DNA from: Rothia mucilaginosa
GTDB taxonomy: Bacteria > Actinomycetota > Actinomycetes > Actinomycetales > Micrococcaceae
DNA: 64,000 nucleotides
NCBI RefSeq assembly: GCF_001061665.1
Contig: NZ_JVSP01000014.1
Location: forward strand, 62,001 to 126,000
Reading direction: 5' to 3'
This document shows, piece after piece, positions 41,084-58,726 of the stretch (the stretch's first letter is position 1; each line of letters starts with the position of its first letter). A program made the translations under genes and the position numbers. The notes below the pieces were generated by a model. The model had not been told where the DNA came from and searched no databases. It worked only from the letters and a program-made list of their open reading frames with translations.

Positions 41084-41135
41084 ACGCCTCTGAACGCGAG
41101 CGCTCGCCAGCACCTACGCAGTCAGCGTTTACACG

Positions 41136-41172
41136 AAAGCTCCGGACTCCCGCATAGGAGCCCGGAGCTTTT
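41136..41172. terminator. Bidirectional terminator between the MATE gene and nadE
   Basis: AAAGCTCCGG pairs with CCGGAGCTTT, with an inner ACTCC/GGAG stem, followed by TTACG. Confidence 0.85.
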
Positions 41173-41197
41173 ACGTTAGTTTTACGGCGGTAAAGCG

Positions 41198-42031
41198 CTA
41201 GTTCTTCCACCAGGAATCAAAAATCGTCACCGGAGTGGTGCGCTTATGGCGGCTACGCAGGTAAATCTGCTCCAGCTTCGCAGCTGCCGCCTCGTCGATT
41301 TCCTTACCCTCCAGGTAGTCATCAATCTGCGGGTACGTCAGACCCAGCTCATCCTCATCGGTGCGGCCGGGTACGCCGTCCAGCAGGTCAGCCGTCGGCG
41401 GCTTAGCCCACAGACGCTCAGACGCACCCAAAACACGCAGCAGCAGCTGGTTCTGGCGCTTATTCAGGCCGTACAGCGGCAGCAGGTCCGCGCCGCCGTC
41501 ACCGAACTTCGTGAAGAAACCCGTAATGGACTCCGCCGCATGGTCGGTACCAACCACCAGGTAGCCGGGACCGCCAGCAACCGCGTACTGGGCGATCATG
41601 CGGGCGCGCGCCTTCACATTACCCTTGTTGAAGTCGCTGATCTGCTCGCCGGTCGCGGCAACGTAGGCGCTGTCGAAACCGTCGACAGCCTCCGCAATGT
41701 TGAAGGTCAGGGAGCGGGTGGGCTGGATGAAACGCAGCGCCTCCTGCGCGTCCTCTTCGTCGTGCTGCACACGGTAGGGCAGGCGCACCGCCACGAACTC
41801 GGTGGTGCGGCCACGCTCGTTGAGGCGGTCGACCGCCAGCTGGCAGAGGCGACCCGCCAGGGTGGAGTCGATACCGCCGCTGATGCCCAGTACCAGGCCG
41901 CGGCTTCCGGTGGCTTCCAGGTAGTCGCAGATGAACTGGATGCGGCGCTCCACTTCTTCGCGTGCCTGCTCTTCGGTCATGTTGGGCTTGACGCCCATTT
42001 CACGGATGATTTGTGCCTGTAATTCACGCAT
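41198..42031 (-). CDS. nadE: NH3-dependent NAD+ synthetase
   Basis: NadE converts deamido-NAD to NAD with ATP and ammonia, the last step of NAD synthesis. The protein has 277 residues, the short ammonia-dependent form without a glutaminase domain. The PP-loop is LVLGISGGIDSTLAGRL. Other family blocks are VRLPYRVQHDEEDAQEAL, NKGNVKARARMIAQYAVAGG, LVVGTDHAAESITGFFTKFG and LPLYGLNKRQ. The C-terminus (RSRHKRTTPVTIFDSWWKN) is typical. It is a single gene that ends at the shared terminator. Confidence 0.97.
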   Translation of the reverse strand: MRELQAQIIREMGVKPNMTEEQAREEVERRIQFICDYLEATGSRGLVLGISGGIDSTLAGRLCQLAVDRLNERGRTTEFVAVRLPYRVQHDEEDAQEALRFIQPTRSLTFNIAEAVDGFDSAYVAATGEQISDFNKGNVKARARMIAQYAVAGGPGYLVVGTDHAAESITGFFTKFGDGGADLLPLYGLNKRQNQLLLRVLGASERLWAKPPTADLLDGVPGRTDEDELGLTYPQIDDYLEGKEIDEAAAAKLEQIYLRSRHKRTTPVTIFDSWWKN

Positions 42032-42319
42032 GACTTAAGTGTACGCTCCACCTTATAGCCAGCGCGGTGAACCGCCGAGGGAGGCGAGGTAGTGTTCCAC
42101 ACGGTGCGTTCAGCGCGGCGTACGCGGCGGGTTCAGTATCGTTTCAGCCCTGAAAATACACAGCATACTCACCGGTAAAAACCCTGTGCGACAACCCGCG
42201 CGGCTGTTAGCATGAACATACGGTTCAAATACCGTTCAAAATAGCCGGTGATGAGGGAAAACGCCCCCACACCTGCTACGCCACAGAACACGTCAACCAA
42301 GGACGGTGAAGACAGCACC

Positions 42320-42622
42320 ATGGCAAAAACAAAAACTGAACTCTACGACGAGCTCGTAGACATCGAAACCAGCCTCGAAAACCACCCGCTCACCTCGGGG
42401 AAAATAGCGGAGGCGAACATCATCATCGAGCAGATGAAGGAGCAGGGCGCCACCCCGGAAGAAATCAATGAGGCACTCACCCGGCAGGGGCTGCCCTCCC
42501 TTGTGGAGATTGGTAAGAGTACCTTGCTTCAGTCTTTTAGCCTCTGGAAGCTGAGTCACCGCAAGTTAAAGGTGGAAGCCGCCATTGAGAAAATCAACCG
42601 TAAAGAAGCCCGCCAGCGCTAA
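42320..42622 (+). CDS. Small helical protein of unknown function (100 aa)
   Basis: The ATG 42320 start (MAKTKTELYDELVDIETSLE) gives a fully helical, charged protein. The frame is open to ATG 42251, but the added part (ENAPTPATPQNTSTK) has no ribosome site and looks untranslated. The residues KIAEANIIIEQMKEQGATPE and the C-terminal KLKVEAAIEKINRKEARQR suggest amphipathic helices and possibly a coiled coil. I see no known family. A terminator at 42654-42696 follows directly. Confidence 0.6.
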   Translation: MAKTKTELYDELVDIETSLENHPLTSGKIAEANIIIEQMKEQGATPEEINEALTRQGLPSLVEIGKSTLLQSFSLWKLSHRKLKVEAAIEKINRKEARQR

Positions 42623-42653
42623 CTAGCCCGCCTCGGGCAGAGGTGAGGCAAGC

Positions 42654-42696
42654 AAATACCCCCGGCAGATGCGTACGGCATCCACCGGGGGTATTT
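42654..42696. terminator. Bidirectional terminator
   Basis: AAATACCCCCGG pairs perfectly with CCGGGGGTATTT, with an inner GATGC/GCATC stem. It separates convergent genes. Confidence 0.88.
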
Positions 42697-42719
42697 AGCG
42701 TTCAAATATAACGTTCCGA

Positions 42720-45700
42720 CTAGCGGTTATTCAGCACACGCACGTTGTAGCGGTGTAGGAACGCCGCCATCGCGCCACGCTCAATCGGCTGAACCGGGCG
42801 GAACGAACCATCCGGCCAACCCGTCGTAATCCGCTGATCGGCCAACCACGCAATCTCGCGGTAGAACTGGCTGCCGGTCGACACGTCGCTAAACGGCGAT
42901 ACCGCAGGAGCCGAATATGCCGGCGAACCCGCGTAACGGTAGAAGAACGCCGCCATCGCGTCACGGTTCACCGCATCATTCGGGCGGAACGTACCGTCAG
43001 ACCAGCCGGTCGTAATGCCGCGGGCGCGCATCCACTCAATCTCCTTGTAGAACGGGTGGTCGCGCGGCACATCCTTGAAGCTCGGGGTGCTCGGCGCGGT
43101 GAACTGCGGCGAACCCGCCATGCGGTAGAAGAACGCCGCCATCGCGCCGCGCTCCACCGAACCATTCGGGCGGAACGTGCCATCCGGGTAGCCGGTCGTA
43201 ATACGACGCTGAGCCAGCCAGTTAATGTCGTTCACGAACGGGTAATCCGCCGGAACATCCTTGAAATGCGCGCTCTCGGCGGGAGCCTCGGAGGACGACG
43301 ACACACGCAGAACCTGCGCACGCTCACCGGCCGCACCGTTCACGCCCGACAGGTCGCCGGTCGCGTTGTGCATGTGCAGGAACAGGGCAGAGCCCTTCGC
43401 CTCACCGCTGCGGTGCGCCACCAGGTTCGTGCCCGGTGCGTCCACGAACAGGTTCGGAACGCCCGCCGAATCGCCGCTGAACCACAGCGCCGGGGTGGCG
43501 TAGTTGAACGACACTGACTCGGTCGTATCCACCACGGTCGTGGCGGAGAACGCGCTCGCGGTGGTCACCGAGTACGAAATCTCGGTTGACTCAGCCTCGG
43601 GGTCCAGGCCCAGAACGCTCAGCGGAACACTCATCACCAGGGTGTTCGAATCCATGATGTTCGTATCGGTATCGCCCCAGGTGCCGTTCAGCGGGTACAG
43701 GGCGTTGGCGATTGCGTGCCACTTGCCGTCCAGGCCGCGCTGCGAAACCTTCACGAGCGGGTAGTCCAGGCCCTTCTCGCGCACCGTCTGCAGGCGGTAA
43801 TCGGTCGTGCCATCCTTATCGGTGTCGATGAAGACGTAGTAGGTGCCGCGCGGGGTCACCTCCGACCAGTTACCCCAGGTCGAAATACCGAAGGACAGCT
43901 GCGCCTGCGAGGTGTCCTGACCGGCAGCCTTCAGCGCCGCCACGTTCGAGGTGGCACCCACGTACTGCAGGTCCATGCGGGAATCCGAACCCACACCCAG
44001 CTTCGCGGTCGGGATGCGCGGGCTCGAAGCACCCAGCTCGAAGGCACCCAGCAGGGAGCGGTAACCGCCCTGATTCACGGCGGTGCCCTCAACGGACAGG
44101 CGCTGCTCCAACGCACCGGCGCCGTTCGAATCGAAGTGGATATCCGCACCGGCCACGCGCAGCGCGCTCACCGGCTTCGGGGCCACGTGCAGGGGCATAC
44201 GCAGGGTCTTCACCGCGGCCGAGGAATCAGCATCGGTCAGGATCAGGCGGCCCGAGGCGCTCGCAATGTACTGGCGGGCACCCGAAATGGTCACCATGCC
44301 GGTCGAGTAGTTCAGCGAATCCTGGGTCGGGTACATCGAGGGGTCGATGGTCTTCTCAAGCTTCGACGGGTCGATGCGCACCGTCACGGTGAACGTGGCG
44401 GTCTGGCCGGCACCCACAGACACCGACTGCGGGTAGGAGAACTCCACACCCGGGATGCTCGTGCTGCCGTCGTAAGATACGGCGTAGGTGTGCGCCACCG
44501 AATCGGTGTTCTCAACGCTCACACGGTGCTGCAGGGTCTGCACGCCGGCGTTCGGGGTGTACTCAACCACGCCGAAGGTATCCGAAACCTGCTCGGGGCG
44601 GGCGGCGTTGAACAGCATCACGCGGTCGGCCACCGCCGCACGCGTGTTGATGCGGCCGGTACCCACGCGGTCCACCGCGTAGGGGTTGCCCCAGGCATCC
44701 TGCATGCGGTGGTCGGCGGTGTTCATGATGGCGGTCTTAATCATGCGCGGGCCGTACTCCGGGTGCGCCTGCATAATCAGCGCCGCAACACCCGCCACGA
44801 ACGGCGTGGACATGGACGTACCGGTCTTTACGGTTGCCTCGGTACCGCCGCCAACCAGGATCGAGGAAATGTTCGTGCCCGGTGCCGCAACGTCCGGCTT
44901 CGTGATGCCGTGCGAGCCGTGCATACCGCGCGCGGTCGAGGTGTTCGCCTGATCCAGCTTGCCGTTCTGCACGCGAATCGACTCGCGCAGGTTCTCGCCG
45001 AGCTGCAGGGTCAGGTTGCCCGAATCAATCTGGGAGGAGAGGCGCTCCACCTGGCTCTTGGCCAGACGCACGCCCGGAATAGCGGAGTTGCCGCCGATGG
45101 CGGTGTCGCCCACCTCCGTGTCGGAGGCGATGACCACGCCGGTCGCGCCGGCAGCCTGCAGGTTATCGAAGCGCACGCGCGAACCGCAGGGGGCGGTGCC
45201 GTCGGCCTCAGCCCAGTCGATGAGGGCCCACTTGCCCTTCAGCGCCGCGGCCTCCTCCTCGGTGAAGGCCTCGCACGCGTAGCGGTTGCGGGTTGCGGCA
45301 CGCACCACGGTGCCGCGCAGCTGCTCCTCGGTCGCCTTCGAGTAGTCGAAGCTCACCGAGTAGTCGCCGTAGGTGTCCGCCTCGTTCGCGGGGGAGAGAA
45401 TCTTCACGCGATCCGCCATCTGGGTCGAACCAATCGAGTTCGCCACGGTCAGGCTGTAGGCGCTGGTGCCGGGGCCGCCCGAGTTGGAGTAGGTGTCACC
45501 CACGGCGTTGTAGTTGTTGGCGTTACCCGCCGCAACCACGGAGAGGATGCCCTCGCGGTAGAGGGAACCGACCGCGTAGTTCACGGTCTCGTCGAACACG
45601 CCGAACTCGTTGCCCAGCGACAGGTTCGCGATGTCGGCGCGGTCGGAGAAGTCGCCGTCATCGTTGGGATCGAGCACGCGGTCAAGGCCCAGGGGGACAA

Positions 45701-46757
45701 ACGCGGTGGTGCCCTTACAACCGAAGATGCGCAGGCCAATCAGCTGAGCCTCCGGTGCGGAGCCCGGGCCGATCTTCATGTCCTTGAGCTGCTCCTCGGT
45801 GAGCTTGGAGTAGTCGCCGCGGAAGGTCGAGCCATCCGCGTTCACGCCGTAGCCCGCCGCGGTACCGGCCACATGGCTACCGTGGCCGCCGCAGTCCAGC
45901 GGGTTCGCGTCCGGGTGGGGAGTGGAAGTCTCCTTCTTAGCGGAGTTGTAGTCGTCACCGACCAGGTCGTAGCCGCCCAGGAACTTCTTCGGGTCGTAGG
46001 TGCCCTCGGGAATCGTGTCGGAGGCTTTTGCCTTCTCGTAGGCCTCCTTAGTGCCGGGGCCGCCCAAATCGGCGTGAGTGTAGTCGATGCCGGTATCGAG
46101 CACCACAATCTTCACGCCCTTACCGGTGTAGCCGGTGGAGGCGGTGTTCTGCGCGTGCTGCTGAGCCCACACGGAGAGCGTGTCGGTATCGAGCACGGAA
46201 CCGGTGTTCTGCGGCGCCATGTCCTCAATGATGCTGATGCGCTCAACATCGGAACGGTTCGCCAGCGCGCGAATCTGCTCGACGTTACCGTAGAGCGCCA
46301 CGCCGCGCATCGTGTTGTGGGTGGTGTACAGAACCTGCGCGCCGGATTCCTTCGCGGCGGAGGCGCCCTGCTGCTGCACGCTGGCGCGGATTGCCTGCAC
46401 CTGTGCTTGCGCGTTTACGGGGGCCTGCGCGCGGGAGCGGACCGCATCCGGCTGGGTCTGCGCGTACGCACCCTGACCCTTGAAGCGCACGAACACGGCG
46501 CGTTCGCCGGTTGCGCCGTCCAGGCTGGGGGAGAGCACCTCGGTCGGGTTCGGCGTCTCGGCGGATGCGCTACGCGGCGCATCCACGTCACCGCGCACCA
46601 CGCCGGGTGCGGCGTACGCCTGGGTTCCGAAGGGTAGGGAAGTCAGCCCGAGGGTCAGGCCCAGCACTAGGGCGCCACAGCCGCGGGCTACGCGCCGAAG
46701 TCCTCGCGGTGGCCGCGAACCCTTCGGAGCGGGGGTAGCTTCAGGGAGAATAGCCAC
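42720..46757 (-). CDS. Secreted S8 subtilase with PA domain and three SLH repeats (copy 1)
   Basis: GTG 46757 follows AAGGAG. The protein has 1345 residues. Order: signal peptide (about 1-50), I9-type propeptide (about 85-180, ending near SDVERISII), S8 domain with Asp221 (VVLDTGIDYTHAD), His292 (GGHGSHVAGT) and Ser in GTSMSTPFVAG near residue 650, interrupted by a PA insertion (GSRVRFDNLQAAGATGVVIA). Fn3-like and beta-rich modules follow, with a calcium-type DTDKDGTTD stretch, then three SLH repeats (about 1165-1340; each has ITTGYPDGTFRP or ITTGWxDGxFRP). It should be a surface-bound protease acting on host or microbial proteins. It is the last of three paralogous genes in tandem. Confidence 0.95.
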   Translation of the reverse strand: MAILPEATPAPKGSRPPRGLRRVARGCGALVLGLTLGLTSLPFGTQAYAAPGVVRGDVDAPRSASAETPNPTEVLSPSLDGATGERAVFVRFKGQGAYAQTQPDAVRSRAQAPVNAQAQVQAIRASVQQQGASAAKESGAQVLYTTHNTMRGVALYGNVEQIRALANRSDVERISIIEDMAPQNTGSVLDTDTLSVWAQQHAQNTASTGYTGKGVKIVVLDTGIDYTHADLGGPGTKEAYEKAKASDTIPEGTYDPKKFLGGYDLVGDDYNSAKKETSTPHPDANPLDCGGHGSHVAGTAAGYGVNADGSTFRGDYSKLTEEQLKDMKIGPGSAPEAQLIGLRIFGCKGTTAFVPLGLDRVLDPNDDGDFSDRADIANLSLGNEFGVFDETVNYAVGSLYREGILSVVAAGNANNYNAVGDTYSNSGGPGTSAYSLTVANSIGSTQMADRVKILSPANEADTYGDYSVSFDYSKATEEQLRGTVVRAATRNRYACEAFTEEEAAALKGKWALIDWAEADGTAPCGSRVRFDNLQAAGATGVVIASDTEVGDTAIGGNSAIPGVRLAKSQVERLSSQIDSGNLTLQLGENLRESIRVQNGKLDQANTSTARGMHGSHGITKPDVAAPGTNISSILVGGGTEATVKTGTSMSTPFVAGVAALIMQAHPEYGPRMIKTAIMNTADHRMQDAWGNPYAVDRVGTGRINTRAAVADRVMLFNAARPEQVSDTFGVVEYTPNAGVQTLQHRVSVENTDSVAHTYAVSYDGSTSIPGVEFSYPQSVSVGAGQTATFTVTVRIDPSKLEKTIDPSMYPTQDSLNYSTGMVTISGARQYIASASGRLILTDADSSAAVKTLRMPLHVAPKPVSALRVAGADIHFDSNGAGALEQRLSVEGTAVNQGGYRSLLGAFELGASSPRIPTAKLGVGSDSRMDLQYVGATSNVAALKAAGQDTSQAQLSFGISTWGNWSEVTPRGTYYVFIDTDKDGTTDYRLQTVREKGLDYPLVKVSQRGLDGKWHAIANALYPLNGTWGDTDTNIMDSNTLVMSVPLSVLGLDPEAESTEISYSVTTASAFSATTVVDTTESVSFNYATPALWFSGDSAGVPNLFVDAPGTNLVAHRSGEAKGSALFLHMHNATGDLSGVNGAAGERAQVLRVSSSSEAPAESAHFKDVPADYPFVNDINWLAQRRITTGYPDGTFRPNGSVERGAMAAFFYRMAGSPQFTAPSTPSFKDVPRDHPFYKEIEWMRARGITTGWSDGTFRPNDAVNRDAMAAFFYRYAGSPAYSAPAVSPFSDVSTGSQFYREIAWLADQRITTGWPDGSFRPVQPIERGAMAAFLHRYNVRVLNNR

Positions 46758-47094
46758 TGGATGCTCCTTGATTCTCTTGTAATGGTGTGTTTCTAGGGGT
46801 CTTCGGCCCGTGCTTCAACGACGGGGTTCAAGCGGGCGCTGAAAGAACCCTCACCATTGTCTCAAGGAGATGGGTGTTTAACCTAGTCAGACTCGTGAAA
46901 CACCGCGGTGCGGAACGTAACAACGGCGAGGGGGCCGTACCGGGCAGCATTGCTGCACGCGGTACGACCCCCTCGCCCTTGACCAGAATCAGCCGTGACC
47001 GGAACCAGCCGTGACTCACCGGCACCTCAGCCGGGGCGGCATCCCGGCCCACGCGGTGAGCCGGTCAGCCAGTCAGCCGGTCAGCCGGGCCTCA
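46758..47094. other. Intergenic region between subtilase copies 1 and 2
   Basis: It contains the copy-2 terminator at 46925-46977 and, to its left, the presumed promoter of copy 1 (46780-46920). No ORF with a ribosome site was seen. Confidence 0.45.
46925..46977 (-). terminator. Long terminator hairpin after subtilase copy 2
   Basis: GGCGAGGGGGCCGTACC with GCAGC pairs with GCTGC and GGTACGACCCCCTCGCC, a stem of over 20 bp with minor mismatches. Confidence 0.85.
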
Positions 47095-50000
47095 CTACTG
47101 GTCGGCGCTGTACCCCAGCACGCTCGTGCCGTAACGGAACACGAACGCCGCCATAGCGTCGCGGTGCACCGGCTCCACCGGGCGGAACGAACCATCGGGC
47201 CAGCCGGTGGTCACGCCCTGCGAGGCCAGCCAGCTGATCTCGCGGTAGAACAGGTTATCCGTCGAAACGTCCGTGAAACGGGCCTGGGCGGGAGCCTCGT
47301 ACGCGGGCGAGCCGGCGTAACGGTAGAAGAACGCGGCCATCGAGTCACGGTTCACCGAGGAATCGGGGCGGAACGTGCCGTCCGACCAGCCGGTCGTGAT
47401 GCCCTGGGCCTTCATCCACTCAATCTCCTTGTAGTAGGGGTGGTTGAGTGGAACGTCCTTGAAGCTGGGCGTACTCGGGGCGGTGAACTGCGGCGAGCCG
47501 CTCATGCGGTAGAAGTACGCGGCCATGGTGGCGCGGTCCATGTTGTTCAGCGGACGGAAGGTGCCGTCCGGGTAGCCGCGGTCAATCTGGTGCGAGGCAA
47601 TCCAGGTGATTTCGCGGTAGAACTGGTTCTCCGCCGGAACGTCGGTGAAGCGTGCCTCGTGGATGGTACGCGGAACGTCCACGACCTGCGCGCGGTCACC
47701 GTCGGCGACACCCTGCTGGGTCGTGCGGCCGCTCAGGTCGCCGGTGCCGTTGTGCAGGTGCAGGAACAGAGCCTGACGCTCCTTGTTGTTGTTCTTGCGG
47801 TGAACGGTCAGCTGACCGCCGTCGCGGTCCACGAACAGGCCGGGTACGCCCGACTCCTCACCGGTGAACCACACACCGGGGTTGAACGGGGAGAAGGTGA
47901 TCGCATCCGTCGCATCGACGTAGGCGTTGCCCTCGTTGTACCAGGTGTCGGTCTGTACCGTGTACTTGATGCTCTGAGCCTTCTCAGCGGTCAGGCCCAG
48001 GTCCTTCAGCGGTACACCCAGAATCATGGTGTTGGTGTCCATGATGTTGGTGTCGGTGTCGCCCCAGGCGCTGTTCAGCGGGTAGCGAGCCACCACGGTG
48101 GATGCGTTACCGGAGATGGACCAGACCTTCACCAGCGGGTAGTCCAGACCCTTCTCTCGGGTTACCTCGAGCGTGTAGTCGGCCTTCGAATCGCCGGTGG
48201 TGTCGATCTGCACCTGTACCTGACGGCCCCAGTGCATGCTGTCCCAGGTGCCCCAGGTCGAAATACCGAAGAACAGAGAACCATCGTTCGGGTTCTTGCC
48301 GGCAGCCTTCAACGCCGGAGCATCCGAGGCGGCACCCACATACTGCAGGTCAACAGCCTGGTTCGAGGGCAGCTTCAGCTGGCCGGTCGGAATACGGCCG
48401 CTGACCGCGCCCAGCTCAAACGCACCCAGCAGCGAACGGTAACCGCCCTGGTTCAGGGTCGTACCGCGCAGAGTCACCGTGGACTCCTTATCGGCAATGC
48501 CCTTGTAATCAATACGGGACGCATCAACACGCATCTTCGAGACGGGCTTCGGAGCCACGTGAATCGACTGGCGGATTGCCTCGCGGCCATTCTCAGAGAA
48601 AATCAGGCGACCAGAAGCGCTCGCAATGTACTGGCGCTTGCCGGCAATCAGAGTCTTACCGGTCGTCCAGTCCTGAGCGACCTGGTCGGCGCTCATCGCC
48701 GGGTCCATGGTCTTCTCCAGCTTGGAGGGGTCGATGCGCACGGTCACGGTCACGTTCTTACGCTCACCGGCACCCACGCTCACCTGCTGCGGGTAGGAGT
48801 ACTCCACACCCGGGATGGTCGTGCTTGCCTCGTAGCTCAGAGTGTAGGTGTGAGCCTGCGAATCGGTGTTGTCCAGAACGATTTCACGCTGAACAGTCTG
48901 AATACCCGAATCAGGGGTGTACTCCAGCACACCAAACGCGGTCGAAACACGCTCGGGGGTCTTCGCATCGTACGCAATAACCTTCGCGTCCACGGCGGCG
49001 CGAGCATTCACCATGCCCGTACCCACACGATCCACCGCGTACTGCGCACCCTGCTCATTCTTGATCGGGGTGGACGCGCCGTTCATCAGCGCAGCCTTAA
49101 TCATCTGCGGGTTGTAATCCTGATGCGCCTGCATCACCAGGGCGGCGATACCGGTCACGTGCGGGGTCGCCATGGAGGTACCGGTGAAGGAAACACCCTT
49201 ATTACCCGTGCCCACAGCGGCAGACACAATCTCAGTACCCGGTGCCGCAAGGTCAGGCTTAATGAAGCCATCGGAGCCGTGCTGACCGCGAGCGCTCGAG
49301 GAATTCAAATCAAAAGCGTGCGAGTGAGGACCGCGGCCCGAAGCCTTGTAGTCCAGGTTCATCTCGACGGTCACCGGACCGGCAGCCAGAGCCTTCTCCA
49401 GGTCCTTCGTCGAAGAAGCAGTCAGACGCAGACCCGGAATGGTCGTATTACCACCAATGCCGATCGTGTAGCGCTCAGCCTTACCGGCCATCACCACGCC
49501 AACACCGCCGGCAGCCTGAACGTTATCGAAACGCACCTTCGAACCGCACGGGAACGACAAGTCGTCCTGATCCCACTCGAAGTAAACCCACTTACCCTTC
49601 AGGGCCTTCGCCTCTTCAGCGGTGAAAGCCTCGCAAGCGTAACGGTTACGCTTCGGCGCGGCAACAACCTCGCCGCGCAACTGATCAGCGGACGCCTTCG
49701 AATAATCGAAGTTCACCGAATAATCACCCTGCAACCACTCCAAACCAGTCTTCGTGGTCACGCGGGCACGGTCAATCGGCTGAGTGGAGCCGTAGGCGTT
49801 CGCCACCGACAGCGCCGCAGCAGCATTCGCCGGGCTACCCGAATCGGAGTAGGTGTCACCCACACCGTTGTAGTTATTGGCGTTACCGGCAGCAGCCACA
49901 GTGAACACACCCTGGCGCGCCATCGTATCAATCATGTACGACTCAGGGTCGTCAGCCGGGGCGAACTCGCCACCGAGCGACAGGTTCACAATGTCGGCGC

Positions 50001-51081
50001 GGTCAGAGAAATCACCGTCACCATTCGGGTCCATCACGGTATCGAGCGCCTTCATCACAACACTCGAATTGCCGTAGCAACCGAACACACGAATCGCCAA
50101 AATCTGAGCCTCAGGAGCAGTACCGGGGCCAATGGACATGCCCTTCAGCTGCTCCTCCGTCAGGTTCTTGTAATCGCCACGGTAAGTCGTACCGTTCGCC
50201 GTCACACCATAACCGGCGGCAGTACCCGCCACGTGCGTGCCGTGACCGCCAGAACCGAAACCATCCGGGCGGCAATCCAGCGGGTTATTATCCGGCTGCG
50301 GAGTCGACTTCTCAGCCACCGACGCATTGTAGTCATCACCGACCAAGTCAATGCCGCCAATGAACTTATTACGATCAATCAGGCCCGAATCAGCGGACGG
50401 AAGCTCCGTCATGGCCTTGGCCTTCAGATAGGCGTCCACGGTTCCGGGGCCGCCAAAGTCGGCGTGAGTGTAGTCCACGCCCGAGTCGACGATCGCAATC
50501 TTCACGCCCTTACCCGTGTACCCCGTGTGATCGCGGGTCCAGGTGGCGAGGGTCTTCGTGTCGATCTCGCTGCCGGAGTTCATGCGCTCCTTCGCGATAA
50601 TCGGCGAAATACGCTCCACATCAGGGCGCTCCGCCAACGCACGAATCTGCGCAGCATCACCAGTAATCGCCGCACCACGCATCGCATTATGCGTGGTGTA
50701 CATCAGTTTAGAACCAGAAGCAGCCGCCACAGACTGAGCCTGCGACTGCACCTGGGCTGCAATAGCCTGCACCTGCGCCTGACGGTTCGCCGGCGCCTCC
50801 TTACGTGCCAGAACAGCCGCGGACTGGGTCTGCTCAAATGCACCCTTGCCCTTGAACTGCACATACACGGTGATCTGGCCTTCAGCCTTCTGCAGGCCCG
50901 GGCTGATACGCGAGGCAGCGTCACCGGATGCGCTCGCAGTGCTTCCTTCGACCTGCTGGGGGCTCTGAGCGTGAGCTGCAGAGAAAGTGGCGGGAACGCC
51001 GAGAGTAAGGGCAAGAGCCGCACTCAAACCGGTCGCACCGACAGCCTTCATTCTGCGGCGTGGCGCATGAGGCGTTGTCAT
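47095..51081 (-). CDS. Secreted S8 subtilase with PA domain and three SLH repeats (copy 2)
   Basis: ATG 51081 is preceded by GAAGGAGG; the frame is open to 51306 but without signal-like sequence. The protein has 1328 residues. The signal peptide is MTTPHAPRRRMKAVGATGLS and following, ending AHA. Propeptide, then S8 triad: Asp in AIVDSGVDYTHAD, His in GSGGHGTHVAG, Ser in FTGTSMATPHVTG. The PA insertion (CGSKVRFDNVQAAGGVGVVM), beta-rich modules with DTTGDSKADY, and three SLH repeats (ITWIASHQIDRGYPDGTFRP first) follow. The first SLH repeat differs most from those of copies 1 and 3. The role should resemble that of its neighbours, with different cleavage preference or regulation. It has its own terminator and a 246-bp upstream gap, so it is probably transcribed alone. 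Confidence 0.95.
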   Translation of the reverse strand: MTTPHAPRRRMKAVGATGLSAALALTLGVPATFSAAHAQSPQQVEGSTASASGDAASRISPGLQKAEGQITVYVQFKGKGAFEQTQSAAVLARKEAPANRQAQVQAIAAQVQSQAQSVAAASGSKLMYTTHNAMRGAAITGDAAQIRALAERPDVERISPIIAKERMNSGSEIDTKTLATWTRDHTGYTGKGVKIAIVDSGVDYTHADFGGPGTVDAYLKAKAMTELPSADSGLIDRNKFIGGIDLVGDDYNASVAEKSTPQPDNNPLDCRPDGFGSGGHGTHVAGTAAGYGVTANGTTYRGDYKNLTEEQLKGMSIGPGTAPEAQILAIRVFGCYGNSSVVMKALDTVMDPNGDGDFSDRADIVNLSLGGEFAPADDPESYMIDTMARQGVFTVAAAGNANNYNGVGDTYSDSGSPANAAAALSVANAYGSTQPIDRARVTTKTGLEWLQGDYSVNFDYSKASADQLRGEVVAAPKRNRYACEAFTAEEAKALKGKWVYFEWDQDDLSFPCGSKVRFDNVQAAGGVGVVMAGKAERYTIGIGGNTTIPGLRLTASSTKDLEKALAAGPVTVEMNLDYKASGRGPHSHAFDLNSSSARGQHGSDGFIKPDLAAPGTEIVSAAVGTGNKGVSFTGTSMATPHVTGIAALVMQAHQDYNPQMIKAALMNGASTPIKNEQGAQYAVDRVGTGMVNARAAVDAKVIAYDAKTPERVSTAFGVLEYTPDSGIQTVQREIVLDNTDSQAHTYTLSYEASTTIPGVEYSYPQQVSVGAGERKNVTVTVRIDPSKLEKTMDPAMSADQVAQDWTTGKTLIAGKRQYIASASGRLIFSENGREAIRQSIHVAPKPVSKMRVDASRIDYKGIADKESTVTLRGTTLNQGGYRSLLGAFELGAVSGRIPTGQLKLPSNQAVDLQYVGAASDAPALKAAGKNPNDGSLFFGISTWGTWDSMHWGRQVQVQIDTTGDSKADYTLEVTREKGLDYPLVKVWSISGNASTVVARYPLNSAWGDTDTNIMDTNTMILGVPLKDLGLTAEKAQSIKYTVQTDTWYNEGNAYVDATDAITFSPFNPGVWFTGEESGVPGLFVDRDGGQLTVHRKNNNKERQALFLHLHNGTGDLSGRTTQQGVADGDRAQVVDVPRTIHEARFTDVPAENQFYREITWIASHQIDRGYPDGTFRPLNNMDRATMAAYFYRMSGSPQFTAPSTPSFKDVPLNHPYYKEIEWMKAQGITTGWSDGTFRPDSSVNRDSMAAFFYRYAGSPAYEAPAQARFTDVSTDNLFYREISWLASQGVTTGWPDGSFRPVEPVHRDAMAAFVFRYGTSVLGYSADQ

Positions 51082-51263
51082 GGAATCCTCCTTCGGATTT
51101 TCTATTTTTCGATAGTGCTGTGTGCTCTGTGGTTGTGTATCGGTGATGCGCGGAGGCGGCCCCACCGGCAGACGACGAGTGAGTGCATCCGCCGGTGAAA
51201 CCGCCACCAAAACTTGAGAGGTTCCGGGATTTTCAGGCCCCGGACCCTGCCGGTTCCAGGTAT

Positions 51264-51293
51264 CCCTCCCACCCCATGCAGGAGGTGGGAGGG
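51264..51293 (-). terminator. Terminator of subtilase copy 3
   Basis: CCCTCCCACC pairs with GGTGGGAGGG around 10 bases, about 35 bp after the stop of the minus-strand gene. Confidence 0.75.
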
Positions 51294-51327
51294 GGACCCG
51301 AACCATTCGCTACCGGTTAGCTACCGT

Positions 51328-54300
51328 CTAGCGTCCGGCGAGGTTCGCCACCTTCTCGCTGTAGCGGTAGATGAACGCCGCCATCGCATCGCGGGCGATG
51401 GGGGTCACCGGGCGGTAGGTGCCGTCGGGCCAACCGGTGCTGATGCCGGTTGATGCCAGCCAGGTGATTTCGCGATAGAACTGGCTATCGGCGGGCACAT
51501 CCTTGAACGGGCTGGTCACGGGCAGATCAACGTGCGGCGAGCCGGCGTAGCGGTAGAAGAACGCCGCCATCGCATCGCGGTTGACCGGTGCGTTCGGGCG
51601 GAACGTGCCGTCCGACCAGCCGGTCGTGATGCCGCGGGCCTTCATCCACTCAATCTCCTTGTAGAAGGGGTGGGTGGTCGGCACATCCGAGAAGCTGGGC
51701 GTGCTCGGGGCGGTGAACTGCGGCGAGCCTGCCATGCGGTAGAAGAACGCCGCCATCGCGCCGCGCTCAACGGACTCCAACGGGCGGTAGGTGCCGTCCG
51801 GGTAGCCGGTGGTGATGCGACGCTGAGCCAGCCACGAAATCTCGGTGTAGAACTGGTCACCGGACTTCACGTCGGTGAAGCGGGACGGGGTGATGTACTC
51901 GTCCTGCTGTTCCTTGACGTTCAGCACCTCGGCGCGGTCGCCGGTTGCGCCGTTCACGCCCGAGAGGTCGCCGGTGCCGTTGTGCAGGTGCAGCAGCAGT
52001 GCCTTTGCGGGGGTGCCGGATTCGCCGAGCGCGGGGAGGGCGTCGGCGGAGCGGTGCGCCTCAAGGGAGCTACCGGGGGCGTCCGGGAAGAGGCCTGCCA
52101 CGGAGGAGGAGTCGCCGCTGAACCACAGCTTGGGGCTGAAGGGGCGGTACTTGATCCAGCCGGTTTCGCTGACGTTGCCCCACTCGTACTGGGTGGTGGC
52201 GCTGACGCGGTACTGGATGTCCGGGTTGTTGGCGCTGGTCAGGCCCAGGTCCTTGAGGGGTGCACCCATCACGAGGGTGTTGGTGTCCATCATGTTGGTG
52301 TCCGTATCGCCCCAGGCGCCGTTGAGCGGGTAGTAGGCGAGCTCGACGAGGCTACCGTTCTTGTAGCCGTAGAGGCGAACCAGCGGGAAGTCCAGGCCCT
52401 TGGCGCGGTCGGTGACCAGCTTGTAGTCGGCGCGGTTGTTGCCGTCGGTGTCAATCTCCACGGTGAAGGTGTTCTCGTAGGAGACAACATCCCAGTTGGC
52501 CCAGGTGGAGATGCCGAAGCGCAGGGTACCGTCGTCGGCGTTACCGCCGGCTGCCTTCAGCGCGGGAGCATCCGAGGAAGCACCCACGTACTGCAGGTTC
52601 GCCTTGACGTTGCTGTTCAGCGACAGGGAGGTGGGGGCCACGCGGTCCACGCTCGCACCGTACTCGAAGGCGCCGAGCAGGGAGCGGTAGCCGCCCTTGT
52701 TGACCTCGGTGCCCTTGAGGGCGACGGGGGTCTTCTGCCAGCCGGTGTCTGCCTTCTGAGCCTCTTCGCTAGAGGGCTTCTGAGAGAAGGTCAGGGTGCG
52801 GTCGGCGGCGTGCATGGTGCTGACGGACTTGGGGGCCACGTGGATGGGCACGCGCAGGTTCTGGCCGTTGTCCTCGGCGAGAACGAGTCGGCCGGAGGCG
52901 CTGGCGATGTACTGGCGGTACTGCGCCGGCACGGTTTCAACGCCGGTGTAGTAGTCGGTCGCGTTCTGGGTGACGTCTGCCGCGGGGTCGCGGGTCTTTT
53001 CCAGCTTGGACGGGTCGATGCGCACGCTCAGGGTGAAGTTCTTGGTTTCACCGGGTGCCAGCGTCACGGACTCGGGGAACGAGTATTCCACTCCGGGAAT
53101 ATTGGTGCTGGGGGCGTAGGACAGCGCGTAGGTGTGCGCGGCGGAATCGGTGTTCTCCACCGTCACCTCGCGGGTGAGAGTCTGAACGCCGGCATCCGGG
53201 GCGTACTCGAGCACGCCGAAGCTCACCGAGGTCGTGTTCGGGCTCTGGGCGTTGTAGGCCAGGGACTTCGACTGCACAGCCGCAAGGGTGTCCACGCGTC
53301 CGGCACCCACGCGGTCCACCGCGTAGACGTCACCGGATTCGGTGCGCACATCGTGGGTTGCGGTGTTGACGAGGGCCGACTTGACCTGTGCGGGGGTGTA
53401 GCTCGGGTGGCTCTGAATGACCAGGGCCGCGGAACCGGTCACGTAGGGGGCGGCCATGGAGGTGCCGCTGAAGGTCACGGAGCCGTTACCGGTCGCCACC
53501 GCCGCGGAGGTGATGTACGAACCGGGCGCCGCAATGTCGGGCTTGGTGTAGCCATAGCTGCCGTGGAAACCGCGGGCACTCATGGGGTTCAGCTGATCCA
53601 GCTTATCGGTGTCCACGCGCAGGGAGGACTTCAGCTCGTTGCCGAGGCGCACGGTCAGGGGCTTACCTGCCGCTTCTGCTGCGGTGATCTGTGCACGCAG
53701 GTCCTTAGCGGCGGATGCTGCCAGGCGGAAACCGGGCAGGGTCTCGTTACCGGCAATACCCAGGCCGGGCTCCTCGTCATTGCCTGCAAGCAGCACGCCC
53801 TTGGCGCCTGCCGCCTGCAGGTTGTCGAAGCGCACCTTGGAGCCGCAGGCGAGTTCACCGTCATCTTTAGCCCAGTCGATGAGCACCCACTTGCCCTTTA
53901 CAGCTGCCGCTTCGTCGGCGCTGAGGGCGTTGCAGGCGTAGCGGTTGTTCTCGGAGATTGCGGTGAGTTCACCGGTGAATTCCTTGCTACCTGCCTGTGC
54001 CCAGGGGTAGGAGACGCTGTAGTCGCCGCGTACCTTGCGGGTGGTGCCGGTGGCGGGGTCGGTCAGTTCTGCCGCATCCACGGCGCGGGTGGAGCCGTAG
54101 GCGTTAGCTACGGTGATTGCGCTGGCTGCGGTGGCGGGGTGACCGGAGTTGGAGTAGGTGTCGCCGCGCAGGCTGTAGTCGTTGGCGTTACCCGCGGAGA
54201 TCACGGAGAGCACGCCGGCGCGGGTGAGCGCGTCAACGGCGTAGGCTTCGGGGTCGTCCTGCGGGGAGAATTCGCCGCCGAGGGACATGTTGACCACGTT

Positions 54301-55368
54301 CACGCGGTCGGAGAAGTCGCCGTCACCGTTGGGGTCGAGGGCGCGGTCGAGCGCCTCGATCACCACGTTGGTGCTGCCGCTGCAGCCGAAGACGCGGAAG
54401 GCGTAGATTTCAGCGTCGGGGGCGACGCCGGGGCCGATCTTCATGGTCTTGAGCTGCTCTGCGGTGAGCTTGCTGTAGTCGCCGGTGAAGGTGGTGCCGT
54501 CGGCGTTCACGCCGTAGCCCGCTGCGGTGCCCGCCACGTGGGTACCGTGGCCGCCGGTGGTGCAGTCGAGCGGGTTGCCGTCGGGGGTTGCGGTGTTGCT
54601 GCCGTCGTAGGCGTCACCGACGAGGTCGTAGCCGCCAGCAACCTTGGTGCGGTTGATGAGCCCGGAGTCTGCGGAGGGCAGCTCGGTGAGCTTGGATGCC
54701 TTCTCATAGTCTTCGAGCTTGCCGCTACCGCCGAAGTCGGTGTGGGTGTAGTCGATGCCGGAGTCGATGACGGCGATCTTCACGCCCTTGCCGGTGTATC
54801 CGCCCGCGCCGGCGGGGTTGGTGGTGCCGGTCCAGGTGGCGAGGGAGCCCGCGTCAATGGCGGCACCCGCGTTCTGGCGGTACTTGGGCAGGATGGGCGA
54901 GATCTTCTCCACGTCGGAGCGGCTGGCGAGTGCCCTAATGGACTCTGCGTCACCGCGCACTGCCACGCCGCGTACTGCGTTGTGGGTGGTGTAGAGGACC
55001 TGCGCGCCGGACTGGCTGCTGACCTGCTGTGCCTGGCTCTGCACCTGCGAGGCGATGGCCTGCACCTGTGAGCTGGTGTTGACGGGTGCCTGCGTGCCGG
55101 CGCGTACGCCTGCGGGCTGGGTCTGTTCAAAGGCGCCCTTACCCTTGAAGCGGACGAAGGCGGTCACGGTGCCGCTGGCGTTCTTCATGCTGTCACTGAT
55201 GACCTGCTGCTTGATTGCGTCGGGGTCTTCGGCGGCCTGGGCGGTGCCGCCGAGTGCGGCCAGGGGGCTCAGCGCCATGCTGAGGGTGAGGACGCCGCTG
55301 TAGACCCTGCGGCGGGTCTGCGTGCGCCGACGTGGTGCACGCGGGGTGGGGGAGTCGGTGGTGGTCAC
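51328..55368 (-). CDS. Secreted S8 subtilase with PA domain and three SLH repeats (copy 3)
   Basis: GTG 55368 follows AAAGGAG. The protein has 1346 residues. The signal peptide contains RRVYSGVLTLSMALSPLAAL and ends AQA. Triad: Asp in AVIDSGIDYTHTD, His in TTGGHGTHVAG, Ser in FSGTSMAAPYVTG. The PA insertion (CGSKVRFDNLQAAGAKGVLL), modules with DTDGNNRADY, and three SLH repeats (ITTGYPDGTYRP, ITTGWSDGTFRP, ISTGWPDGTYRP) are present. It is first in the transcription direction of the cluster. The same domain order and nearly constant length across all three copies point to tandem duplication. SLH domains classically bind pyruvylated wall polymers; whether this organism makes such a polymer cannot be seen here. 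Confidence 0.95.
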   Translation of the reverse strand: MTTTDSPTPRAPRRRTQTRRRVYSGVLTLSMALSPLAALGGTAQAAEDPDAIKQQVISDSMKNASGTVTAFVRFKGKGAFEQTQPAGVRAGTQAPVNTSSQVQAIASQVQSQAQQVSSQSGAQVLYTTHNAVRGVAVRGDAESIRALASRSDVEKISPILPKYRQNAGAAIDAGSLATWTGTTNPAGAGGYTGKGVKIAVIDSGIDYTHTDFGGSGKLEDYEKASKLTELPSADSGLINRTKVAGGYDLVGDAYDGSNTATPDGNPLDCTTGGHGTHVAGTAAGYGVNADGTTFTGDYSKLTAEQLKTMKIGPGVAPDAEIYAFRVFGCSGSTNVVIEALDRALDPNGDGDFSDRVNVVNMSLGGEFSPQDDPEAYAVDALTRAGVLSVISAGNANDYSLRGDTYSNSGHPATAASAITVANAYGSTRAVDAAELTDPATGTTRKVRGDYSVSYPWAQAGSKEFTGELTAISENNRYACNALSADEAAAVKGKWVLIDWAKDDGELACGSKVRFDNLQAAGAKGVLLAGNDEEPGLGIAGNETLPGFRLAASAAKDLRAQITAAEAAGKPLTVRLGNELKSSLRVDTDKLDQLNPMSARGFHGSYGYTKPDIAAPGSYITSAAVATGNGSVTFSGTSMAAPYVTGSAALVIQSHPSYTPAQVKSALVNTATHDVRTESGDVYAVDRVGAGRVDTLAAVQSKSLAYNAQSPNTTSVSFGVLEYAPDAGVQTLTREVTVENTDSAAHTYALSYAPSTNIPGVEYSFPESVTLAPGETKNFTLSVRIDPSKLEKTRDPAADVTQNATDYYTGVETVPAQYRQYIASASGRLVLAEDNGQNLRVPIHVAPKSVSTMHAADRTLTFSQKPSSEEAQKADTGWQKTPVALKGTEVNKGGYRSLLGAFEYGASVDRVAPTSLSLNSNVKANLQYVGASSDAPALKAAGGNADDGTLRFGISTWANWDVVSYENTFTVEIDTDGNNRADYKLVTDRAKGLDFPLVRLYGYKNGSLVELAYYPLNGAWGDTDTNMMDTNTLVMGAPLKDLGLTSANNPDIQYRVSATTQYEWGNVSETGWIKYRPFSPKLWFSGDSSSVAGLFPDAPGSSLEAHRSADALPALGESGTPAKALLLHLHNGTGDLSGVNGATGDRAEVLNVKEQQDEYITPSRFTDVKSGDQFYTEISWLAQRRITTGYPDGTYRPLESVERGAMAAFFYRMAGSPQFTAPSTPSFSDVPTTHPFYKEIEWMKARGITTGWSDGTFRPNAPVNRDAMAAFFYRYAGSPHVDLPVTSPFKDVPADSQFYREITWLASTGISTGWPDGTYRPVTPIARDAMAAFIYRYSEKVANLAGR

Positions 55369-55762
55369 GGTGCTCCTTTGCTTGGCTCCTGTGGTGTTTC
55401 TGGGAGGCGTTTGTGAATATGGTGCGGGTTGTCCCGCAGGTTATACCTGAGAATAAACCCTCAGATGTGAACCACAATACACCTTTAAGGGGTTGATAAA
55501 GGGATTTTCGGTTGTGCGCGCCACAAAATAGACTCTCATGACACATTGTGAACATTGAGAGTTCTGCCAGGTCCGTGTGGGATGGTGAAAGAAGAACCGT
55601 CGGTGTCGAAGGGAACCGGGGCCGGGCGGGGAGCCCGCCTCCGGCGTTCGCGTTCTGGATCCGATGGATCCGCGTAATATACGCGCACTAAAAAGTGTTC
55701 CACCTGCGCAAACACGTGGCAGGGATAGGATTAAGTTACGACCACCGCCGAAGGAGATTGCG
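55369..55762. promoter_or_regulatory. 394-bp intergenic region with palindromes
   Basis: The region lies upstream of subtilase copy 3 (minus) and a membrane-protein gene (plus). It carries CTGAG/CTCAG around 8 bases (55446-55463, leader of copy 3), GGCGGG/CCCGCC (about 55625-55639), and the perfect palindrome CGCGTA-ATA-TACGCG (55671-55685), 78 bp before the plus-strand start. No ORF of note was seen. Confidence 0.4.
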
Positions 55763-56472
55763 ATGACCGAGCACGCTTCGCAACAGTCGCGAAAAGAGCA
55801 AGAGTCCTACCAGCCCCTGTGGGATGACTCCTTGCCCGTTCCGAGCTACATGAACATCTCCCTGGGGAATGGCGAGGCCCCGGCCGAAGCTTCCCCGCAG
55901 CAAGCCTCGGAGAACACCGCATTACCGACCGCCGAGAGCGCGCCGGAGCGGGAGCCGGGAGTCTACTCTTACACCCCCACCCTCAAGGTGACGCCCACGC
56001 CAATCTTTGGCACGCCCGACCCCTCCCTCCAGCGGATGCACATTCAGGATATTCCGGGCACCCGCCCCGCCCCCGAGAGCGCCATGAAGGGCCCCGGCGC
56101 CGCCACCAACCAGCGGTTACCGGAAGGAACGGTCGGCTATATTCGCGAGGTGGATGCGCTGTACCCCGACGGCGCCCCACCACCTGGGAAATAACCCGCG
56201 GCGCATGGCTCTTTTTCGCCATCGTAGTCTTCTGCAACCCGCTGATTGACGCTTTGATCATCTATCCCTTTGATAATCAGGCGGCCGTGTCACTCTCCTT
56301 TCTTGGGGCCATTCTGGCGCTGGGCACCTACGGTATTCCGGTGATTCTCTGGTTCGTCTTCTTGATTATGGCCATCAGCAAGGTGTGCAAGAAATACTCC
56401 GAGGTGAGGGAACAGCGCTGGAACGCCGAGGATGCCCCCGCGTTCTGGTACTACCCCGTGTATATCGGCTAA
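55763..56472 (+). pseudogene. Membrane protein gene apparently split by a frameshift
   Basis: ATG 55763 with GAAGGAG upstream starts a 143-codon frame (MTEHASQQSRKEQ...), hydrophilic and Pro-rich, that stops at 56194. The -1 frame, open across that stop, continues TRGAWLFFAIVVFCNPLIDA, then a second hydrophobic stretch (TYGIPVILWFVFLIMAISKV) and a conserved-looking tail (AEDAPAFWYYPVYIG), ending at 56472. Within the second part the only start is a TTG inside the first membrane segment, with no ribosome site, so it is not an independent gene. One extra base near CCCC (56175-56178) or a slip at GGGAAAT (56186-56192) would join both into a protein of about 236 residues. It could be a true mutation, a sequencing error, or programmed frameshifting. 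Family unknown. Confidence 0.65.
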
Positions 56473-56646
56473 CCCCGCAGACCGCAAACCCGGCGAGCCG
56501 TGAAGTTTTTATCCGCCATCCCACCGAGGTTAACGCTCTATTTACCTTGCGCTGATAGGGTGGAGGCATCATAAGGGCTCCGGGGGCACCGGATGGGCGC
56601 CCCTCCCCGCCGTATTCGCTCATTGATTAAAGAAAGAACGAAGACA

Positions 56647-57144
56647 ATGTCGCAGTATCCCGACGACCAGTACAACCAACCCCAGCAGCCTCCCTATGGC
56701 CAGCAGGTGCCGAACTACCAGGCCGGTTACCAGCAGAACTATTACCCGCAGGATTCCTACACTCTCGCCCCCTCCTCGGCGGACGATAAGAACATGGCGA
56801 TTCTGGCCCACCTGGCCTCGGCCATTCTCTCGCTGCTGTCCTTCTCAACCCTGAGCGTGATTGCTCCGCTCGTGATGTGGTTCATCTACAAGGACAAGCC
56901 CGGCTACAACTTCACGAAGGAATCCGCCCGCCGCGCGTTCAACTTCAACTTCTCCCTGTGGGTCATTAGCGCCGCCGCCTGGCTGGCGATTGTGCTGACC
57001 TTCGGCATCCTCGGCCTCATCCTGTGGGTGGTGCCCGCGGTGGTGACCATCCTGATGGTCGTCTTCCACTCGCTGGCCGCCGTCGCAGCCGCTCGCTGCG
57101 ACCTGTACGAGTACCCGATGACCTTCATCAAGATCATCAAGTAG
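56647..57144 (+). CDS. DUF4870-like membrane protein
   Basis: The start is ATG 56647 (MSQYPDDQYNQPQQPPYGQQ); the ribosome site is weak (AGAACGAAG). The protein has 165 residues. A Tyr/Gln/Pro-rich N-terminus of about 50 residues is followed by NMAILAHLASAILSLLSFST, the loop KDKPGYNFTKESARRAFNFN, and two more membrane segments. The loop with FTKESARRAFNFNFS is characteristic of DUF4870 (Tic20-like) proteins, whose function is not established. It is probably transcribed alone. Confidence 0.85.
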   Translation: MSQYPDDQYNQPQQPPYGQQVPNYQAGYQQNYYPQDSYTLAPSSADDKNMAILAHLASAILSLLSFSTLSVIAPLVMWFIYKDKPGYNFTKESARRAFNFNFSLWVISAAAWLAIVLTFGILGLILWVVPAVVTILMVVFHSLAAVAAARCDLYEYPMTFIKIIK

Positions 57145-57369
57145 TCTTCACGGCTTATACCGGTAGCGCCCCCGCCCGAATATCGGATGGGGGCGTTGCT
57201 GTGCCCGGGTATGGCACGCCTGTTGACCGTTCACACGGGACTTAAAGGGAACGGCACGGTATCATGGGAAGAGGTGTGCCTATTCACTCCACATTCACTC
57301 TACGGATGATGGGACGCCGCCGCGCCGTGAAATCCGGTGCGTCTCTTCGAAGCTTTCAAGGAGCACAAA

Positions 57370-58662
57370 ATGTCAGCTGTCGTGATTGTGGGCGCCCAGT
57401 GGGGCGATGAGGGTAAGGGCAAGGCTACCGACCTGCTCGGCCCCCGCGTAGACTACGTGGTCAAGCCCAACGGCGGTAACAACGCCGGTCACACCGTGGT
57501 GGTGAACGGCCAGAAGTTTGAGCTGAAGCTGCTGCCCGCCGGTATTCTGAGCGACAACGCCGTCCCCGTGATTGGTAACGGCGTGGTCGTGAACCCCGAG
57601 GCTCTCTTCGCAGAGATCGAAGGCCTCGAGGCCCGCGGCGCTGACACCTCCCGCCTGAAGATTTCCGCTAACGCGCACCTGGTGGCACCCTACCACCAGA
57701 CCATGGACAAGGTGACCGAGCGCTTCCTCGGCAAGCGCGCCATCGGCACCACCGGCCGCGGTATCGGCCCCGCCTACATGGACAAGGTTGGCCGCCTCGG
57801 CGTGCGCGTGCAGGACATCCTCGACGAATCCATCCTGCGCCAGAAGGTTGAGGGCGCGCTGCGCCAGAAGAACCAGCTGCTGGTGAAGGTCTACAACCGC
57901 CGCCACGTTGAGGTTGAGGAAATCGTCGAGTACTTCATGTCCTACGCCGAGCGCCTCAAGCCCATGATCGTGGACACCACCCAGCTGCTGAACAAGGCGC
58001 TGGACGAGGGTAAGACCCTGCTGATGGAGGGCGGCCAGGCCACCTTCCTGGACGTGGACCACGGCACCTACCCGTTCGTGACCTCCTCGAACCCGACCGC
58101 CGGCGGCGCCTGCGTGGGTTCGGGTGTGGGCCCGACCCGCATCACCCGCGTAATCGGTATCCAGAAGGCGTACACCACCCGCGTGGGTGCCGGCCCCTTC
58201 CCGACCGAGCTGTTCGATGAGATGGGCGACTACCTGCGCACCACCGGCGGCGAGTTCGGTGTGAACACCGGCCGCCCCCGCCGCTGCGGCTGGTACGATT
58301 CCGTGCTGGCACGCCAGGCCGTGCGCATCAACGGCTTCACCGACCTGTTCATCACCAAGCTGGACGTGCTGACCGGCCTGGAGAAGATTCCGGTCTGCGT
58401 GGCCTACGATGTGGACGGCGTGCGTCACGACGAGATGCCGATGACCCAGACCGATTTCCACCACGCCAAGCCGATTTACGAGTACTTTGACGGCTGGACC
58501 GAAAACATTTCGGATGCGAAGAGCCTGGATGAGCTGCCCGAGAACGCCCGCAAGTACGTGCTGAAGCTGGAGGAGCTCTCTGGCTGCCGTATTTCCGCGA
58601 TTGGTGTGGGCCCGGACCGCGACCAGACCATTGTGGTTCGCGACCTCATCAACGAAGACTAA
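57370..58662 (+). CDS. purA: Adenylosuccinate synthetase
   Basis: PurA joins IMP and aspartate with GTP, the first committed step to AMP. ATG 57370 follows CAAGGAG. The protein has 430 residues, normal size. Motifs: [17 protein letters not shown] (GTP loop with catalytic Asp), [11 protein letters not shown] (with catalytic His), [57 protein letters not shown], and [19 protein letters not shown]. It is a single gene with its own terminator. Confidence 0.98.
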
Positions 58663-58681
58663 GCTCAAAAGCTCAATACGC

Positions 58682-58726
58682 GAAAGCCCCCGGAGGCTAC
58701 CTTATAGGTGTCTTCCGGGGGCTTTC
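58682..58726 (+). terminator. Terminator of purA
   Basis: GAAAGCCCCCGGA pairs perfectly with TCCGGGGGCTTTC, with a partly paired 19-base loop. Confidence 0.88.

Follow-up and report, generated by a model that had tools for sequence, protein, structure and literature searches.

A 64,000-nucleotide stretch of the genome of the oral bacterium Rothia mucilaginosa (positions 62,001 to 126,000 of contig NZ_JVSP01000014.1, hereafter the window; the source assembly comprises 2.24 Mb in 16 contigs) encodes three tandem subtilases, each of which has a signal peptide, a Peptidase_S8 domain with a PA insertion, beta-rich modules and three SLH repeats. These proteases are likely to be attached to a wall polymer that carries pyruvate. 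The three enzymes would be secreted, activated through loss of their propeptides and retained at the cell wall through non-covalent binding of the C-terminal SLH trimer. The ligand would most likely be a wall polymer bearing a ketal-pyruvylated sugar, an epitope that would be made by a family 2 glycosyltransferase (GT2) together with a CsaB-like pyruvyltransferase. The open reading frames (ORFs) of the three genes, which lie on the minus strand as an earlier note on this DNA had described, and their domains are as follows.

51328..55368, minus strand: gene 3, SLH subtilase of 1346 aa, the first copy transcribed (ORF, Pfam, R. aeria comparison)
53314..54792, minus strand: gene 3 Peptidase_S8, PA insertion at 53713-53976 (Pfam; Asp, His and Ser invariant in 18 homologues)
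51331..51891, minus strand: gene 3 SLH trimer, Gly29 and Arg43 in all three repeats (Pfam, AlphaFold2, Foldseek)
47095..51081, minus strand: gene 2, SLH subtilase of ~1328 aa, with ATG 51081 behind GAAGGAGG (ORF, Pfam, R. aeria comparison)
49054..50514, minus strand: gene 2 Peptidase_S8, PA insertion at 49414-49677, just under the Pfam cut-off (Pfam)
47098..47664, minus strand: gene 2 SLH trimer (Pfam, residue alignment)
42720..46757, minus strand: gene 1, SLH subtilase of 1345 aa (ORF, Pfam, R. aeria comparison)
44706..46124, minus strand: gene 1 Peptidase_S8, PA insertion at 45039-45314 (Pfam)
42723..43280, minus strand: gene 1 SLH trimer (Pfam, residue alignment)

The nine SLH repeats are genuine. 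Each single repeat exceeds the PF00395 gathering cut-off of 20.8 bits, and the three repeats of each protein together reach 99.6 to 115.8 bits (E 9e-29 to 8e-34). The AlphaFold2 model of the gene 3 trimer has a mean predicted local distance difference test (pLDDT) score of 95.5. Foldseek gives 15 PDB matches for it at E<=0.001, every one a solved structure of the SLH trimer from Sap or SpaA; they include 6bt4, 6cwc and 3pyw (E 6e-10 and template modelling score 0.82-0.86 for the last). The model and these matches rule out a divergent non-SLH fold, one of two findings that the earlier note had named as refuting its reading. In SpaA, the residues Gly29 and Arg43 touch the pyruvate (residue roles from PMC6081394); across 26 SLH trimers, that is 78 repeats, both are invariant (78/78 in each case).

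A search of the rest of the genome for a csaB homologue, which the earlier note had advised, finds one gene of the PF04230 family. Its product has 566 aa and scores 81.7 bits against a cut-off of 25.3, which rules out that the genome is devoid of csaB homologues, although the enzyme is not a CsaB equivalog; a PDB sequence search with it gave no match. The gene starts 3 bp downstream of a GT2 gene, and the pair occupies L022:5977-8745 on contig 9. Aligned to a Paenibacillus CsaB, the enzyme keeps the equivalents of Arg148, Arg306 and His308 of Paenibacillus alvei CsaB and has Arg in place of Lys328, the P. alvei numbering having been transferred by spacing via another Paenibacillus CsaB. The first three residues have roles in phosphoenolpyruvate (PEP) binding in P. 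alvei CsaB, and its K328R variant retains reduced activity (PMC10435577). This glycosyltransferase-pyruvyltransferase (GT-PT) module probably puts pyruvate on a wall sugar.

The link between the module and the SLH proteins emerges from a comparison of relatives. SLH domains occur in 43 of 149 Micrococcaceae genomes and in 63 of 278 genomes of the order; a class-wide survey found them in 6 of 247, too few for an association test. Orthologues of the pyruvyltransferase are present in 23 of the 149 Micrococcaceae genomes, 20 of which also encode SLH proteins (Fisher p 3e-10, although Fisher p-values overstate independence here because the genomes are related), and permutation within five genera gives p 0.003. 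Across the order, a match to the CsaB model is found in 51 of 63 genomes with SLH proteins versus 103 of 215 without (p 3e-6). The genes are also physically linked. An SLH gene, mostly that of the ~1300-aa SLH subtilase, lies at most ~10 kb from the pyruvyltransferase orthologue in 13 of the 20 SLH-bearing Micrococcaceae genomes, against an expectation of 0.7-1.3, whereas this is so for 4 of ~47 other PF04230 genes of the same genomes (p 4e-6; the ~47 were counted by hand). With ~43 such genes lacking an SLH neighbour, chance nearness of any pyruvyltransferase to SLH genes is ruled out. In R. nasimurium loci as well as in G278 and G325, the GT-PT pair stands next to the SLH subtilase, and in other families of the order GT2 and pyruvyltransferase are fused as a single ORF of ~770-1030 aa directly adjoining SLH genes (L143, L209-L211, L213-L219). 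At L212 the pyruvyltransferase ORF is present, and a glycosyltransferase was not detected in that ORF. Neither the association of GT-PT with SLH genes nor the GT-PT fusion was found in the literature searched; a link between SLH and pyruvyltransferase is mentioned by analogy for one Bifidobacterium strain (PMC10057886).

Four genomes that lack the CsaB-like type have a pyruvyltransferase of a second, weaker family next to their SLH subtilase (L135:8668-9873, L136:8651-9835, L137:9530-11029 and L138:9007-10215). The argument does not rest on this family, because overall it co-occurs only loosely with SLH (9 of its 15 genomes have SLH).

Besides the relatedness of the genomes, a number of observations weigh against anchoring through pyruvate. 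Enzymes of the PF04230 family also decorate exopolysaccharides. The Rothia enzyme scores 71 bits against the CsaB equivalog model TIGR03609, whose curated cut-off is 213.1, and no pyruvyltransferase in the 278 genomes of the order passes this threshold, so that standard annotation would not call these enzymes CsaB. A pyruvyltransferase was not detected in 4 of the 43 SLH-bearing genomes of the family and 12 of the 63 of the order. In the source genome the GT-PT pair lies away from the protease array, and it is likewise distant in R. aeria. Among the 78 repeats, the Trp13 that stacks on N-acetylmannosamine (ManNAc) is found in none, position 13 being Q, V, L, K or P; the Glu of the TRAE motif is not conserved and is almost always Ala or Gln, and the equivalent of Lys130 is likewise not conserved, being Ala. 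Finally, strict coupling fails in genome G377, where the subtilase at the same place stops before the SLH region and stands beside purA and a diverged pyruvyltransferase (29%; L230:4315-11036), and where no SLH was detected in the genome.

The altered pocket residues, the lack of any pyruvyltransferase above the CsaB cut-off, the SLH-bearing genomes without a pyruvyltransferase and the reverse case of G377 would fit a different arrangement, in which the ligand of the SLH trimers is peptidoglycan or a wall glycan without pyruvate, and the GT-PT module makes exopolysaccharide or capsule, its genes merely travelling with those for surface proteins. This is unlikely given that the pyruvate-contacting residues are invariant and that linkage is specific to this type of GT-PT rather than shared by further PF04230 genes in those genomes. 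It is also countered by genome G248, a near relative, in which the protease array and the GT-PT module have been lost in parallel: between purA (96%) and nadE (99%) the array is cut to a 97-residue scar that is 82% identical to gene 3 (L231:6703-6993), and the GT-PT module is an internally deleted remnant (L229:6740-7258).

The best reading is that anchoring to a pyruvylated polymer in Rothia would work like the SLH-CsaB system of Bacillus anthracis and P. alvei (Sap, SpaA, SlhA), with another sugar environment and a dedicated GT-PT module. Common to both are the fold of the SLH trimer, Gly29 and Arg43, and a homologous pyruvyltransferase with conserved PEP residues; in P. alvei, moreover, csaB is gene-linked with slhA and spaA (PMC6801904). 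The window proteins differ in that Trp13, the TRAE Glu and the Lys130 equivalent are replaced, and the Rothia pyruvyltransferase in that it falls under the CsaB cut-off and is paired or, in relatives, fused with GT2; the ligand here is a predicted one. Judged by sequence, the pocket retains its pyruvate-reading part and is different in its sugar-reading part. Since Gly29 and Arg43 are kept while Trp13 and the Lys130 equivalent are absent, a pyruvylated sugar is probably recognised otherwise than in Bacillus or Paenibacillus. Position 14 is aromatic in 75 of the 78 repeats and Trp20 is present in 76, and one or the other may stand in for Trp13. We would put at about even the chances that Micrococcales form a distinct SLH branch, in which a GT2-PT module, often fused, makes a pyruvylated sugar other than ManNAc that is read by a matching pocket, with Gly29 and Arg43 kept, Trp13 replaced and Phe14 and Trp20 conserved.

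The remaining parts of the three proteins are those of subtilases. The common architecture that the earlier note had given them largely stands: Peptidase_S8 is found with E-values of 1e-40 to 1e-47, and PA is found in all three, marginally in gene 2 (23.3 bits against a cut-off of 23.9). Inhibitor_I9 is under the Pfam cut-off in genes 2 and 3 and is not reported by Pfam for gene 1, but the AlphaFold2 model of gene 3 shows a beta-alpha-beta-beta-alpha-beta unit at the place of the I9 propeptide (fragment residues 25-116, pLDDT ~75-91). What does not hold throughout is the DxDxDGxxD stretch, which is complete in gene 1 only (DTDKDGTTD), the counterparts being DTTGDSKAD in gene 2 and DTDGNNRAD in gene 3. 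The Asp-His-Ser triad of the S8 family is present (D221, H292 and S648 in gene 1). The catalytic residues and the pocket-side SLG and AGN motifs are identical in genes 1-3 and give no sign of the different specificities suggested by the earlier note; the model of the protease part (pLDDT 71) is too weak for a comparison of substrate pockets. The three share 55-56% identity, and the triplet is therefore not due to chance. For gene 2 the most likely start codon is ATG 51081, behind GAAGGAGG, rather than 51306.

The architecture and the presence of SLH domains in Micrococcales are already known and not new (PMC5817068, PMC6801904, PMC6107788). Micrococcales are named as SLH bearers in reviews (PMC5817068), and PMC6107788 deals with SLH surface proteins of Propionibacterium freudenreichii; as the genome counts given above also show, SLH domains are not restricted to Firmicutes or thermophiles, of which the earlier note had called them classical anchors. 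Thermoanaerobacter tengcongensis NP_624131.1 (Subt-PA-DUF1034-Big_2-SLH; PMC2605481) is likewise a subtilase with PA and SLH, but comes from a Firmicute and has two SLH domains and other middle modules. In sequence and fold, the protease part is most similar to Vpr (8jmw), streptococcal C5a peptidase (7bj3, 3eif) and plant SBT3/cucumisin; unlike the window proteins, these solved entries have no SLH trimer, and they are 16-20% identical over the aligned region.

The best related loci are those of Rothia. The same triplet is present in two further complete Rothia genomes, where gene 3 is at 92%, and R. aeria AP017895.1 has it between purA and nadE, its copies being 54-69% identical to the window genes; gene 3 is nearest to the first R. 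aeria copy (61% identity). The middle R. aeria copy (L029:14436-18248) is split over several frames, which indicates a broken gene or sequencing errors. Rothia subtilases are known as gluten-degrading enzymes, among them R. aeria BAV86562.1 and R. mucilaginosa subtilisins (PMC7761627, PMC6522598). They resemble the window proteins in being S8 subtilases of the same genus, with an orthologous purA-triplet-nadE locus in R. aeria. The papers, however, concern gluten activity, and the full text of PMC7761627 makes no mention of SLH; cleavage of gliadin after QPQ or LPY defines such enzymes, for which the window proteins are candidates.

Published gluten-degrading activity of Rothia is described as cell-associated and survives ethanol, as would be expected of anchored enzymes. 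By zymogram, the active R. aeria band lies near 75 kDa. This is below the size of a 1.3-kilo-residue precursor, although the gel was non-denaturing, and with the SLH-less version in G377 it could mean that the SLH regions no longer anchor and that the processed proteases are released and active in solution. Such release is improbable, not only in view of the cell-associated activity but also because ligand residues that are invariant in 78 repeats imply selection. Still less credible is binding of the SLH trimers to another partner, such as a surface lattice or a glycan of the host or of a neighbouring species, in place of the producer's own wall. The precedent for this is P. freudenreichii, whose SlpB contributes to adhesion to HT-29 cells. 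According to PMC6107788, however, SlpA, SlpB and SlpE, which unlike the window proteins are not proteases, are actinobacterial SLH proteins bound non-covalently to the wall, and such proteins can also be extracted with guanidine from the producer's wall. The linkage of SLH genes to the producer's own pyruvyltransferase likewise points inward.

The array is embedded between conserved neighbours, and a hairpin follows each gene.

57337..58662, plus strand: purA, conserved left neighbour in Rothia (synteny L027, L029, L135, L138, L140, L230, L231)
41198..42031, minus strand: nadE, conserved right neighbour (synteny L027, L029, L140, L144, L231)
51257..51302, minus strand: hairpin 3' of gene 3 (fold z -2.5)
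46925..46977, minus strand: strong hairpin 3' of gene 2 (fold z -6.5)
42652..42699, minus strand: strong hairpin 3' of gene 1 (fold z -5.5)

The hairpins agree in part with the proposal that each gene has its own terminator, but they lack clean U-tracts, and a scan for promoter and terminator consensus gave no more matches than shuffled sequences. Independent termination of the three genes is plausible. Rfam reports no RNA element within 40000-58700.

Elsewhere in the source genome, contig 16 encodes at least six more secreted proteins with weak, divergent SLH repeats, several of them without Arg43 (L024:1768-11012, L023:6880-7980). A few kb from this cluster, at L023:8-2471, are ORFs that by eye resemble Cas5, Cas6e and Cas1 of type I-E CRISPR. 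Two large beta-propeller-like surface proteins with terminal LASTG and LAKTG sorting signals are encoded at L023:8330-14076, and sortase-type anchoring probably coexists with SLH anchoring.

We infer that the role of the anchored proteases would be to digest, at the cell surface, food or saliva proteins that are rich in proline and glutamine, and the proposal thus bears on how Rothia keeps its gluten-degrading proteases there. It also implies that the actinobacterial enzymes in question escape the CsaB annotation model. Through the GT-PT module, the question of what SLH anchors bind becomes testable in human commensals. If Micrococcales do form a distinct SLH branch, pyruvylated wall polymers, which in actinobacteria have otherwise been mere taxonomic markers, would gain a function.

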